A stretch of DNA of 64,000 bases. Origin: Chryseobacterium nakagawai. GTDB taxonomy: Bacteria > Bacteroidota > Bacteroidia > Flavobacteriales > Weeksellaceae. A model generated the notes under the pieces. The model did not search any database, had not been told where the DNA came from, and saw only the letters and a list, made by a program, of their open reading frames with translations. The position numbers and the translations under genes are program-made. The stretch's first letter is position 1; the number at the start of each line of letters is the position of its first letter. This document shows positions 13,217 through 21,749 of the stretch, in pieces. Where the stretch lies: NCBI RefSeq assembly GCF_900637665.1, contig NZ_LR134386.1, positions 2,224,501 through 2,288,500 of the forward strand. Reading direction: 5' to 3'.

Positions 13217-14734
13217 ATGAGTAAAAAGAGAGTTTTAATCAGTGTTTCTGACAAAAGTGGATTAATTGAATTCGCACAGTTTTTGGAAGCTCAGAATTAT
13301 GAGTTGATCTCCACAGGAGGAACGTTCAAACATTTGAAAGACGCTGGTTTAAATCCAATTCAGATTGATGAGGTAACCAATTTCCCTGAAATGTTGGACG
13401 GAAGAGTGAAAACCTTACATCCAAAAGTTCACGGTGGACTGTTAGCGGTTCGTAACAACGAAGAGCACATGAAAACCGTTCAGGAGTACGGAATTGGTCT
13501 GATTGACATGGTGATCGTAAACCTTTATCCTTTCTTTGAAAATGTGAACAAAAACATTTCTTTACACGAGAAAGTAGAGTTTATCGATATCGGAGGTCCA
13601 TCAATGCTTCGTTCTGCAGCGAAAAACTTTGATTCTGTTACGGTAATTACTGATGTAGAAGATTATACAACAGTAAAAATAGAAATGGAGCAAAACGGGG
13701 ATACTTATATTGAAACCCGTAAGAAGCTTGCAGGAAAGGTATTCAATCTTACATCAGCTTATGATGCTGCTATTTCAAGAATGCTTTTAGATGAGGAATA
13801 TCCAACGTATTTAAGTGCATCTTACAAAAAAGTTTCTGATCTTAGATACGGTGAAAACCCTCACCAGTCAGCAGCTTACTATGTTTCTACTTTCGAGAAC
13901 GGAGCTATGAAAGACTTCGAACAGCTTGGAGGTAAAGAGCTTTCTTTCAATAACCTTCGTGATATGGACCTTTGCTGGAAAGTAGTTACTGAGTTCAAAG
14001 AAGAGATGGCTTGTTGTGCAGTAAAGCACTCTACCCCTTGTGGAGTAGCGATTGGTACATCAGCATTAGAAACTTATCAAAAAACTTTCGAATGTGATCC
14101 GGTTTCTATCTTTGGCGGAATTGTTGCTATGAACTATAAGATCGATGCTGCAACGGCTGAAGAGCTGAATAAAACATTCCTTGAGATTGTAATGGCTCCG
14201 GATTTCGACGAAGAAGCTCTTGAAATTTTAAGAAAAAAGAAAAACCTGAGAATCATCAAAATCATAAACCCTGTTTCTGACAAGAAAACATGGGTAAAAG
14301 TAGACGGTGGTATCTTGGTTCAGGATAATGATTTACACTTCTCTGATGACATCAAAGTAGTTACTGAAACTCAGCCTACAGAAGAACAGAAAAAAGCATT
14401 GCTTTTCTCTCAGAGAGTTGTGAAATACGTGAAATCTAACGCTATTGTGGTTTCCAACGGGATCCAGGCTTTTGGAATCGGAGGTGGACAGGTAAACAGA
14501 ATCTGGGCTACGCAACAGGCCATTGAAAGAGCAAAAGAAAAATTCACAGGAGATTTAGTATTAGCTTCTGATGCTTTTTTCCCTTTCCGTGATGTCGTAG
14601 ATTTTTGCGCTCAGGAAGGTATTAAAGCAATCATCCAGCCTGGAGGAAGTGTAAAAGATCAGGACAGTATAGAAGCTGCTAATGAGCACGGTATTCCAAT
14701 GATGTTTACTGGGGTTAGACACTTTTTCCACTAA
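13217..14734 (+). CDS. purH: Bifunctional AICAR formyltransferase / IMP cyclohydrolase
   Basis: 505 aa fused enzyme for the last two steps to IMP. The N-terminal cyclohydrolase domain (about 1-190, MGS-like fold) has [24 protein letters not shown] and [16 protein letters not shown]. The C-terminal transformylase half has [14 protein letters not shown] (about 211-224), the catalytic K-H in [14 protein letters not shown] (about 268-281), and [24 protein letters not shown] (about 455-478). Length and all core motifs are normal. No clear terminator follows; purD has its own promoter. Confidence 0.97.
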
Positions 14735-18141: not shown

Positions 18142-19650
18142 ATGCAAATAGAAACAAGACCCCTGACTGTTCAGGATTATGAAGAGTTGGCAGCAACAAT
18201 GAAAAGAGCGTATCCACAGATGTCGGAATCCATATGGTCTAAGAAAAGTATAGAAAAACTCACAAGAATGTTTCCTGATGGGCAAATCTGTATCACAGTA
18301 GATGGAAAATTGGCAGCGGTGGCGCTTTCTATTATTGTAAATTATGACGAATTCGGGGACGATCATACTTATAGTGATATTACAGGGAATTATACCTTCA
18401 ATACCCACACCTCAAAAGGAAATGTTTTATATGGAATAGAAGTTTTTGTAGATCCTGAATATCGCGAATTACGTCTTGGGAGAAGACTATATGACGCAAG
18501 AAAAGAACTTTGTGAGCTTTTGAATCTGAAATCCATTATTCTGGGAGGTAGAATCCCGAGTTATCATAAATACAGCCACGAACTTTCTCCAAGAGAATAT
18601 ATACGAAGAGTTAGGGATAAGGAAATTTATGATCCTGTGTTGTCTTTTCAGCTTTCCAATAATTTCCTGCCAATCAGGGTGTTGAAAAAATACCTTCCCG
18701 AAGATGAAGCATCCAGAGAGAATGCGGTCCTTCTGCAGTGGAATAATATTTACTACAGCAAAAACCCGAATACCATGCAGGATAGTATTATCCGTCTTGG
18801 ATTGGTGCAATGGCAGATGAGGCATTTCAAAGATATAGAAGCATTTTATGAGCAGGTTGAGTTCTTTGTGAATGTAATGGGAGACTACAAATCAGATTTT
18901 GTGTTGTTTCCGGAACTGTTTAATACCCCTTTGCTGGCTCCTTTCAATAGTCTTTCGGAAAGAGACAGTATGATAGAGCTTGCCAAGCTTACTGAAGAGA
19001 TTAAAAAGAAAATTTCCGAACTGGCCATCAGTTATAACGTCAATATCATTTCCGGAAGCATGCCTGTTTTTGATAATGATACGAATGATTTGTATAATGT
19101 CAGCTATCTTCTTCACCGTGACGGTCGTATAGATGAATACAGGAAAATTCATATTACCCCCAATGAAAAGAGGTATTATGGAATGAAAGGAGGGAATGAA
19201 ATCAAAGTTTTTGATACAGATTGTGGTAAAATAGGTCTCGTGATATGCTACGATGTAGAGTTTCCGGAACTACCGAGAATTCTGGCAGATCAAGGAATGA
19301 AAATATTATTTGTTCCTTATCTTACCGATACTCAAAATGCTTATATGAGAGTACGTCACTGTGCAGCAGCCAGAGCGATAGAAAACGAATGCTATGTCGC
19401 TATTGCAGGTTGTGTAGGTAATCTCCCTAAAGTGAACAATATGGATATTCAGTTTGGACAGGCAGCTGTATTTACCCCATCAGATTTTGCGTTTCCTTCC
19501 AATGCCGTGAAAGGAGAAGCTACCCCTAATACGGAAATGACCTTAATTGTAGATGTAGATCTGAATTTATTGAAAGATCTTCATCATAACGGCTCCGTTC
19601 AGGTGATGAAAGACCGAAGAAAAGATCTTTATGAAACCTATCTTAAATAA
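18142..19650 (+). CDS. GNAT acetyltransferase fused to carbon-nitrogen hydrolase (nitrilase superfamily)
   Basis: 502 aa two-domain protein. The N-terminal GNAT fold (about 1-190) has the acetyl-CoA strand GIEVFVDPEYRELRLGRRLYDARKEL (motif A, variant RxLRLGRxLY). The C-terminal nitrilase domain (about 212-500) has the full catalytic triad: E258 in LFPELFNTP, K335 in YRKIHITP, and C369 in VICYDVEFPE. The same order occurs in Bacillus subtilis YhcX (from memory). It is cytoplasmic, and the substrate is unknown; the arrangement suggests linked deamidation and acetylation of one metabolite. It stands alone, ended by a terminator. Confidence 0.88.
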   Translation: MQIETRPLTVQDYEELAATMKRAYPQMSESIWSKKSIEKLTRMFPDGQICITVDGKLAAVALSIIVNYDEFGDDHTYSDITGNYTFNTHTSKGNVLYGIEVFVDPEYRELRLGRRLYDARKELCELLNLKSIILGGRIPSYHKYSHELSPREYIRRVRDKEIYDPVLSFQLSNNFLPIRVLKKYLPEDEASRENAVLLQWNNIYYSKNPNTMQDSIIRLGLVQWQMRHFKDIEAFYEQVEFFVNVMGDYKSDFVLFPELFNTPLLAPFNSLSERDSMIELAKLTEEIKKKISELAISYNVNIISGSMPVFDNDTNDLYNVSYLLHRDGRIDEYRKIHITPNEKRYYGMKGGNEIKVFDTDCGKIGLVICYDVEFPELPRILADQGMKILFVPYLTDTQNAYMRVRHCAAARAIENECYVAIAGCVGNLPKVNNMDIQFGQAAVFTPSDFAFPSNAVKGEATPNTEMTLIVDVDLNLLKDLHHNGSVQVMKDRRKDLYETYLK

Positions 19651-19685
19651 CAAAACAGAATGCGAAAGCATTCTGTTTTGTTTTA
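19651..19685. terminator. Bidirectional terminator
   Basis: A perfect 13-bp stem (caaaacagaatgc/gcattctgttttg) with a GAAA tetraloop. T-rich 3' sequence on both strands lets it end both the nitrilase fusion and the convergent small peptide gene. Confidence 0.85.
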
Positions 19686-19705: not shown

Positions 19706-19876
19706 TTATTTATACTGAGGGCAGACTACCGCAGGGCAAATTAATCCTGGGCATTGTGGAAGTCCATCAGTAGGACAGCACTGATATGAGCACTTTCCAC
19801 CACCGATAATGATTCCGCTTCCTGAAACATTTTTTAATTGCTCTCTTGAAAGTTTGCTGTTACGTAGATTTTTCAT
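19706..19876 (-). CDS. Small Cys-rich bacteriocin-like peptide with double-glycine-type leader
   Basis: 56 aa, ATG to TAA. Residues 1-20 form a leader, MKNLRNSKLSREQLKNVSGS. It fits the LSxxELxxVxGG consensus of peptides exported by C39-protease ABC transporters, with Q for E at -8 and GS for GG at the cleavage point. The predicted 36-residue core starts GIIIGGGKC and has six Cys (29, 33, 34, 42, 47, 52), enough for three disulfides. The last 15 residues are three CPxxx pentads (CPGLI, CPAVV, CPQYK). Similar small genes in Chryseobacterium are annotated 'bacteriocin-like protein'. No exporter or immunity gene is adjacent. Function untested; secretion and maturation are inferred. Confidence 0.8.
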   Translation of the reverse strand: MKNLRNSKLSREQLKNVSGSGIIIGGGKCSYQCCPTDGLPQCPGLICPAVVCPQYK

Positions 19877-19918
19877 GTTGTAATACTTTTATTGGTTTGT
19901 TTTAATGTTTGTACTCTG

Positions 19919-19926
19919 TAAATATA
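19919..19926 (-). promoter_or_regulatory. Possible -7 box of the small peptide gene
   Basis: On the minus strand TATATTTA (7 of 8 to TAnnTTTG) ends 42 nt before the peptide ATG. No convincing -33 element is seen. Confidence 0.35.
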
Positions 19927-20099: not shown

Positions 20100-21749
20100 A
20101 TGTTTGATAAGCAACAAAGAAAACTGAAAAGATCTGCAAGACTGATTTCTGTATTAAGTAAATATGGTTTTAAAGATATTCTTGCAAGAATGAACGGCGG
20201 AAATAAACAGGAAGATCTTTCAGGAAATTCTGACGAAATAATTTCAAAAGGTACCGTTTATGAAAGAATAAGACTGGCTTTGGAAGAGTTGGGGCCTACT
20301 TTTGTAAAACTGGGACAAACATTCAGTAACAGAGAAGATTTGTTGCCACCGGAACTGATTCAGGAATTGCAAAAGCTACAAGACAAAGTAGAAACAGTAG
20401 ATATGGATGTGAAAGATGCTTTGGAAAGCGAGTTTAATATCTCTGTAAAGGATCATTTCCTGGAAATTGAGAAAGAACCATTGGCGACAGCTTCCATTGC
20501 ACAGGTTTATAAAGCCATTTTGCTGGATGGAAGTCAAGTTATTTTGAAGCTTAGAAAGCCTGATGTGCAATCAGTAATTGAAGATGATCTATTGCTTATT
20601 AAAGATATTGAAAAATTAATTTCAGCGTATTCGGAAATAGGAGAGAAGCTAAATCTGAAACAGGCTATTTCTACATTTGAAAGATCTTTATTAGAAGAAG
20701 TTTCTTTGATTAATGAAAAGAATAATATCCAACAGTTTCGCCTCAATTTTAAAAATAATAAAGAAACCTATGTTCCTAAAGTGTACGAAGAATTTTCCAA
20801 CAACAATATTCTTTGTATGGAATTTATTGATGGAATCAAGGTGACGGATAAGACTGATCTCCTGGCCCATGATATTGATCCTGTAAAAGTTTCTGAGACA
20901 GGATTAAGGCTTTTTGTTTCCCAAATTTTAGATTACGGGTTCTTTCATGCAGATCCGCATGCGGGAAATATTTTAGTAAAAAGAGATGGGAAGATTGTCT
21001 TTATTGATTTTGGAGCGGTTGGAAAGATTCAGCCTAATGATAAAGAGATTCTTGAAAATCTGATTGTAAGTTTTGTTTCTAAAAACTCACATAAAATAGT
21101 TCGTTATCTCAAAAAAATGGCGGTGAGCTATGAAATTCCTGACGAAAGAAGATTTGAAAACGATGTGGAAGACATTTTGAACTTCGTTCACAGCTCCTCA
21201 TTAAAGGAAATCAATGTTCAGGTCATTATCAATAAGATGAAAGATATTTTAAAGGATAACAGGTTGTATATGCCTGATTATTTCTATCTTTTATTTAAAG
21301 GAATCAGCCTGATAGAAGGAGTAGGAAGAAATATCAATCCTGATCTGGATATTGTGAAAAGCCTTCATCCTTACACTCGAAAAATATTCACTAAAAAGAT
21401 CAGTCCGAAAAATATTTTAAAAACCAGCATGGACCGGATGATGAATTTCACGGATAATGTAGATGAAATCCCTAAGGAACTTCGCTCTGTGCTTCAAAAG
21501 CTGGATGAAAATAAATTTACGGTTTCCAGTGAGATCAAAAATATTGAAAAGACCAATCAGCTGATAAAGTCAAGTGTTATCAATCTGATTCTAGCCATGA
21601 TTTTAGGAGCTAATATCATTGCTACAGCCATTGTCTTTGTTTCAGAATCAGGACCAAGAATAGGAGAATTATCTTTAGTAGGTGTTTTGGGTTTTATATT
21701 TTCAATTATTTTAATATTAATACTTTTACTAAGAGTAACTAGAAAATAA
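20100..21749 (+). CDS. ABC1/UbiB (AarF) family protein-kinase-like protein
   Basis: 549 aa atypical kinase of the ADCK/UbiB family. The KxGQ signature is at about 66-72 (VKLGQTFSNREDLLP). The alanine-rich loop reads PLATASIAQVYKA (about 130-142), the ATP-site Lys lies in VILKLRKP, and the catalytic segment is FHADPHAGNIL with metal site FIDFGAVG (about 285-310). Two C-terminal spans (about 485-505 and 520-545) anchor it. In respiring bacteria the family supports quinone biosynthesis or lipid distribution. Since Flavobacteriia use menaquinone, a strict ubiquinone role is unlikely. It stands alone. Confidence 0.88.
   Translation: MFDKQQRKLKRSARLISVLSKYGFKDILARMNGGNKQEDLSGNSDEIISKGTVYERIRLALEELGPTFVKLGQTFSNREDLLPPELIQELQKLQDKVETVDMDVKDALESEFNISVKDHFLEIEKEPLATASIAQVYKAILLDGSQVILKLRKPDVQSVIEDDLLLIKDIEKLISAYSEIGEKLNLKQAISTFERSLLEEVSLINEKNNIQQFRLNFKNNKETYVPKVYEEFSNNNILCMEFIDGIKVTDKTDLLAHDIDPVKVSETGLRLFVSQILDYGFFHADPHAGNILVKRDGKIVFIDFGAVGKIQPNDKEILENLIVSFVSKNSHKIVRYLKKMAVSYEIPDERRFENDVEDILNFVHSSSLKEINVQVIINKMKDILKDNRLYMPDYFYLLFKGISLIEGVGRNINPDLDIVKSLHPYTRKIFTKKISPKNILKTSMDRMMNFTDNVDEIPKELRSVLQKLDENKFTVSSEIKNIEKTNQLIKSSVINLILAMILGANIIATAIVFVSESGPRIGELSLVGVLGFIFSIILILILLLRVTRK

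Follow-up and report, generated by a model that had tools for sequence, protein, structure and literature searches.

The 56-residue precursor encoded on the minus strand at positions 19706–19876 of the window, by which we mean the whole 64,000-nucleotide stretch of Chryseobacterium nakagawai DNA that was analysed, belongs to a solitary gene that, because leaders and machine co-occur across the genus and are linked in operons of relatives, most likely feeds a shared export and oxidation machine encoded about 1.4 Mb away. In the account that we consider well favoured, the leader would direct the precursor to a C39-type ABC exporter (exporter A), which would cleave off the leader after G19-S20 and export the remaining core of 36 residues from the cytoplasm. 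The six Cys residues of the core would then be joined into three disulfides by the action of a VKOR-thioredoxin protein (VKOR-Trx), so that the product would be a small disulfide-locked peptide working outside the cytoplasm. The leader, the conservation of the cysteines, the co-occurrence and the operonic linkage in relatives are read from sequence, and it is from these that we infer cleavage, export by exporter A and disulfides. The exporter and modification, which a preliminary description of this DNA had left blank, are thus narrowed to a probable pair of one C39 ABC exporter and VKOR-Trx, hence to disulfides.

The precursor gene, its leader and its genomic place

The open reading frame (56 codons and a stop; C1:2244206-2244376 in the genome) is real, and the plus-strand frame over the same positions translates with many stops. 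The minus strand translates as MKNLRNSKLSREQLKNVSGS and then a core of 36 residues that, as the preliminary description had it, contains six Cys and three tandem CPxxx units. These units are CPGLI, CPAVV, and CPQYK, and they lie downstream of an earlier CPTDG. The leader comprises residues 1–20 (19817–19876), and the core (19709–19816) consists of a GIIIGGGK spacer and then CSYQCCPTDGLPQCPGLICPAVVCPQYK; it contains one Ser and one Thr. The peptide has zero matches in Pfam, and AlphaFold on the precursor, with a 51-sequence alignment, returned no confident fold (pLDDT 58.5, pTM 0.28). The gene stands alone. Outside the system, a GNAT/carbon-nitrogen hydrolase gene (PF00795; 18142–19650, plus strand) ends convergently at 19650, an ABC1/UbiB-family kinase gene (PF03109; 20100–21749, plus strand) starts divergently at 20100, and no other ORF of at least 40 aa lies wholly between the two, so that no neighbouring immunity gene is seen in the ORF list.

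Double-glycine leaders processed by C39 peptidases follow the consensus L(-12) S(-11) ... L(-7) ... V/I(-4) x G(-2) G/A/S(-1), and the leader of the window peptide satisfies it, with the Q at -8 and the G-S at -2/-1 that had been described. G19 is invariant in both homologue alignments. The leader model NF047798 (leader_Chryseo, 'bacteriocin-like protein') matches over model positions 1–17 of 18 with 24.2 bits, a borderline score given the cut-off at 23.5; in a six-frame search the same leader scores 20.9 bits, below the cut-off. While the fit to the C39 consensus was correctly noted before, the G-S pair had been presented as a departure from it, and this does not hold: according to our own cut-site rule, the leaders of 73 paralogues in the genome end in GG (54), GA (6), GS (5) or other pairs (8), and G-S is not unusual within the family. 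With the NF047792 model (CCPGW family putative bacteriocin) the window peptide scores 13 bits and its pepA, pepB and pepC relatives (see below) 17–22 bits, against a cut-off of 80.

A protein search returned 13 database homologues with 69–93% identity, and a scan of genome contigs by core patterns gave 85 confirmed places; the 80 that were retained belong to Chryseobacterium and a single Weeksellaceae MAG. Given these homologues and the conservation across Chryseobacterium, the possibility that the ORF is not a gene was rejected. Exactly six Cys are present in 81 of 81 peptides (the 80 loci and the window), a count biased by the core patterns through which they were found, and Cys29, 33, 34, 42, 47, and 52 are invariant across 51 aligned sequences. 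The dN/dS ratio over the 81 peptides is 0.11 for the core and 0.32 for the leader, with the same ascertainment bias. The hydrolase gene was found at 70, the UbiB gene at 72, both at 69 and at least one of them at 73 of the 80 loci, and wherever found they keep the same orientation relative to the peptide gene. A third arrangement is seen on a MAG contig (L131:21-529), where the CP-repeat peptide is directly preceded by the end of a SPASM maturase gene (55% identity) and has the hydrolase gene as its neighbour on the other side. Peptides were also located in 30 hand-picked genomes by starting from the UbiB gene and using a leader pattern alone; the six obtained have identical Cys spacing and a mean identity of 0.85 in the core and 0.70 in the leader.

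This conservation bears on what the peptide does. With the same biogenesis, it might be a conserved non-antagonistic secreted factor (a signal, an envelope or a matrix component) and not a bacteriocin, a reading that we hold to be possible but do not favour. The nearly fixed core, with its six Cys and their spacing, the usual sharing of one genomic place and the empty interval between the flanking genes speak for it, although bacteroidetocin loci are likewise described without an obvious immunity gene (PMC6671954), and up to 65 leader matches per genome are easier to reconcile with weapons, or with a varied role, than with a single signal. In short, a weapon is favoured by how large and varied the repertoire is and by the parallel with bacteroidetocins, a factor by the conservation and the fixed place. 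Our guess, by analogy, is that a role as an interbacterial peptide like the bacteroidetocins has somewhat less than an even chance; a role as a conserved extracellular or envelope factor is guessed to be less probable than that.

Upstream of the gene, about 50 nt before the ATG, a promoter-like block TATATTTAC (19918–19926, minus strand) is present in 13 of 16 aligned orthologous upstream regions (the window and 15 hand-picked others); we take it to resemble the Bacteroidota -7 element. In a search for a common promoter, TAnnTTTG occurred in 21 of the 73 paralogue upstream regions, where mononucleotide shuffles gave 8.9 on average, an enrichment that is not decisive. Between the convergent gene ends there is a 15-bp hairpin (19649–19682, minus strand; MFE -21.2 kcal/mol, z -6.9). 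It is likely to be a terminator shared by the two convergent genes, which would make the peptide gene its own transcription unit; a simple scan for T-run terminators listed nothing at these positions.

Exporter A, VKOR-Trx and their linkage to the peptide in relatives

That no exporter adjoins the gene had been noted and is correct for this genome. A search for a C39-type ABC exporter elsewhere in the genome had been proposed; it yields two C39 (PF03412) matches, C1:878863 and C1:4143180. Exporter A (C39 peptidase/ABC) is encoded at C1:877048-879234, with an adjoining gene for a HlyD-type adaptor, and VKOR-Trx is encoded beside it at C1:879582-881084. The locus thus comprises the HlyD-type protein, two leader peptides and VKOR-Trx, as well as grasp-with-spasm enzymes (TIGR04192 and TIGR04193). 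Catalysis by C39 peptidases requires Cys, His, and Asp, and exporter A has the stretches DCGPTC, HFVV, and SDP where these are needed. VKOR-Trx carries a CRVC in the VKOR portion and a CGFC in the thioredoxin portion; inspection of its N-terminal segment revealed no DCG motif. Exporter B, at C1:4143180, sits in a LanB/LanC locus and is 48% identical to exporter A.

The distribution of these proteins was compared with that of the leaders in 118 genomes of the same genus. Leaders (E value up to 0.05) were found in 109 of them, with at most 65 matches per genome, and above the cut-off in 108, G029 having a single weak match; the proposal that homologues with a conserved leader should occur in relatives is borne out by these counts and by the 13 homologues above. 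VKOR-Trx was matched in 111 genomes (E value up to 1e-10). Every genome has an ABC match to exporter A (E value 0 in 110; 87–100% identity in the best rows listed), and exporter A is absent from seven in which the best matches, among those listed, score like distant ABC relatives. All 109 leader-positive genomes match both VKOR-Trx and exporter A, with broken copies in two: both G038 and G063 have an interrupted VKOR-Trx, and the partial exporter A match of G063 (1.8e-137) was also counted as broken. Seven of the nine leader-less genomes (G011, G057, G060, G079, G098, G104, and G115) are without VKOR-Trx, exporter A and leaders; G089 has both proteins, and G053 has kept exporter A (C12:92119-94305, 90% identity) with a VKOR-Trx match that is merely 26% identical. 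The Fisher p for co-occurrence of leader and machine is 7e-10, a value that overstates independence owing to shared descent. On a UbiB tree of 30 proteins, from all nine leader-less genomes and 21 hand-picked others, the absence needs at least five changes, three of them forced by well-supported branches, and thus is not a single lost clade. A profile of the window peptide matched 100 of the 118 genomes (E value ≤ 1e-4), namely none of the seven without exporter A and 100 of the other 111.

A similar association extends beyond the genus. Among 148 genomes of the family, leader (E value up to 0.001) and VKOR occur together in 31, leader only in two, with one weak match each, VKOR only in six and neither in 109. 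Outside the genus the corresponding numbers are 12, 2, 6 and 108, so that a VKOR-Trx match is found in 12 of 14 leader-positive and 6 of 114 leader-negative genomes, some of these matches being partial or distant (G120, G172, and G233).

The operonic link is seen in relatives. Comparison of the coordinates of VKOR-Trx, exporter and peptide matches gave at least 15 genomes with the peptide beside VKOR-Trx, and 14 of these exporter-side loci, chosen because their coordinates suggested linkage, were fetched; G018 was left out, its exporter being on another contig. The order VKOR-Trx, window-peptide homologue, exporter A and HlyD on the same strand was found in 12 of the 14, with exporter A 89–91% identical in the fetched loci; of the two exceptions, the exporter is a fragment in L185 and lies outside the fetched stretch in L184. 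The homologue in L179 was missed by the pattern and found by a profile search. In 11 of the 14 loci VKOR-Trx is followed by three peptides: a TCKGGQLC...-like one, a CSQACCPPPG...-like one and the window-peptide homologue. The window gene is the counterpart of the third, pepC, in this VKOR-pepABC-C39 cassette. The exporter-side homologue mostly reads CCPTDGRPRCP..YCPAVVCPQY, with CCPPPGQIKCPKLICPAVVCPQY in L174 and L176. Further leader peptides often share the interval between VKOR-Trx and the exporter, as do ATP-grasp and SPASM genes in L181 and L186. Among the named genomes, VKOR-Trx lies at most 4 kb from the peptide in L112, L113, L117, L119, L123, and L126, and exporter A and HlyD are also present in L117, L119, and L126.

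In the genome of the window, the first two cassette peptides have relatives that adjoin each other at C1:2351799-2352125, and the window gene itself represents the third; together they look like a scattered VKOR-pepABC-C39 cassette. Of the 30 genomes in the UbiB tree, six have a copy on the UbiB side and five (G001, G028, G031, G055, and G080) one on the exporter side, and none has both among the matches listed. We read this as one peptide gene that has moved relative to the exporter operon, in either direction.

At L112:4511-7589, L113:4536-7595, and L185:12792-15865, LanB-like dehydratase genes adjoin the VKOR-peptide cassette and are encoded on the other strand. A peptide further modified by ATP-grasp/SPASM or LanB enzymes, i.e., a graspetide or lanthipeptide, might be suspected from these genes near the homologue and from the grasp-with-spasm enzymes at the exporter locus of the window's genome, but ATP-grasp is present at merely three of the 14 fetched loci (L181, L185, and L186), the core offers one Ser and one Thr, and the even Cys numbers described below argue for Cys-Cys pairing. 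We consider such modification unlikely, and as the main reading it was rejected on the ATP-grasp count and the even Cys. Service by exporter B in place of exporter A is very unlikely: exporter B is the sole other PF03412 match in the genome, but the operonic linkage is to exporter A, to which B is 48% identical, and four genomes without exporter A have ABC proteins, probably C39-type, that score similarly (E value 1e-204 to 1e-208) and have no leaders.

Paralogous precursors, Cys parity and DUF805b

The NF047798 search of the six-frame translation (E value up to 10) gave 80 matches, 47 of them above the cut-off; this limit is loose, since matches, none of them above the cut-off, were also obtained in 8 of 14 control genomes. 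ORFs were recovered for 78 of the 80, the remaining two not being fetched, and by an acceptance rule that ignored Cys, 73 precursor genes were accepted, 46 of which score over the cut-off; the window gene is one of the other 27, which score below it. The search of the genome's small ORFs for the leader that had been proposed is thus rewarded. Five candidates were rejected: three were spurious, one was an ORF of 26 aa that consists of a leader only, and one, C1:4970639, looks genuine but failed the pattern. A 13.5-bit leader match within a 290-aa ORF just before the window (L054:1221-2093; C1:2223220-2224092) was judged spurious. The 73 genes form 41 genomic groups, 26 of single genes and 15 that hold 2–8, so that the description of scattered, solitary genes is accurate as to the spread and in part as to solitude.

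The cores contain two Cys (1 gene), four (27), five (1), six (38), seven (1) or eight (5). The number is even in 71 of 73 (p 3e-19 under a fair coin) and, after related cores were merged, in 37 of 38 clusters (p 1e-10); both odd-Cys paralogues score above the NF047798 cut-off. This parity is what paired cysteines predict and points, indirectly, to disulfides. To a metal-binding, metallothionein-like core, an option of the preliminary description for which the six Cys in 36 residues and the CP repeats might speak, we give very little credence, and it was rejected, given the even parity, the link to an oxidising VKOR-Trx protein and the scarcity of His (1% in pooled paralogue cores).

A peptide family with five Cys (...FCMYxC...CSxDFKCP) occurs near the exporter or VKOR locus in L119, L173, L175, L180, L182, L184, L185, and L186, with a relative at C1:34148 in the window's genome. 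It is a real exception to the even-Cys rule, and its members might dimerise.

Several paralogous genes are preceded, at about 20 nt, by the end of the Rfam element DUF805b (RF02914, typed cis-reg). Of 14 gathering-level matches in the genome, ten precede genes of the set, including both beside exporter A (L033:10995-11027 and 13503-13537; the others are in L021, L014, L038, L009, L008, L043, L007, and L023), and the remaining four precede a GG-type precursor in the LanB locus (1), 90-aa proteins with a signal-like start (2) and a 493-aa protein (1). In 12 relatives, 30 of 91 matches were read, of which 16 precede leader peptides by eye and 10 by a strict pattern; in the four exporter-less genomes among the 12, none of seven does. 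The Rfam scan found no DUF805b element at the window peptide gene and nothing at gathering level in the window, a sub-threshold microRNA match alone lying around the gene. No paper was found in the literature under the names DUF805b or DUF805 RNA.

Significance and comparison with known systems

The reading of the product as a secreted peptide, one of those first offered, holds up. A wider proposal, to which we assign an even chance, is that of a venom-like arsenal, in which one exporter-plus-oxidase machine would secrete dozens of dispersed and highly varied disulfide miniproteins (73 accepted genes), part of them under DUF805b; the CP-repeat peptide would be a conserved member of its core, one whose gene has entered or left the exporter operon. 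NCBI names such genes 'bacteriocin-like' from the leader alone; the NF047798 model covers only the leader, and neither its name nor its description specifies an exporter, a modification or a tested function. Once such genes are tied to a single exporter and a single disulfide enzyme, one knock-out can test the entire peptide set, and if the proposal is true, removal of the machine should abolish dozens of secreted peptides at once. The Bacteroidota would then have a secretion system in which one machine serves many peptides, and with it a rich source of natural disulfide scaffolds. In the literature searched on Chryseobacterium leader peptides, RiPPs and VKOR with C39, a body of work mostly outside subscription papers, the exporter link was not found; one machine that apparently serves dozens of scattered genes, together with the operonic link, is new here.

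Two known systems invite comparison. The grasp-with-spasm or chryseoviridin graspetide loci (PMC8939145) also occur in Chryseobacterium, and such enzymes share the exporter locus of the window's genome; maturases of the ATP-grasp/SPASM type tied to the precursor, which define a graspetide, are not what is found here, with ATP-grasp at so few of the fetched loci. The closest characterised system is that of the bacteroidetocins, the locus of which has four genes, encoding among others one peptide, a thiol oxidoreductase, a C39-type ABC protein and a five-TM protein (PMC6671954). The peptide has a 15-aa leader with a GG cut and a 42-residue core with four Cys, and its killing is proven; strains that lack the oxidoreductase gene make a weaker toxin, and the same report found no gene for immunity (PMC6671954). 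Bacteroidetocins kill Bacteroidales, with BamA as the target, according to a further report (PMC8546649). A GG-type leader, a short Cys-rich core, a thiol oxidoreductase, a C39-type ABC protein and the lack of an obvious immunity gene are thus common to both, while the peptide described here differs in its six Cys, its 36-residue core, the distance of its gene from the machine and its dozens of paralogues. The window gene does not share one locus with an oxidoreductase and a C39 ABC gene as the bacteroidetocin gene does, whereas its homologue does so in 12 of the 14 fetched loci of relatives. With the window gene outside such a locus, the parallel, which is one of kinds of parts and not of core sequence, would be a likeness of mechanism, not membership.
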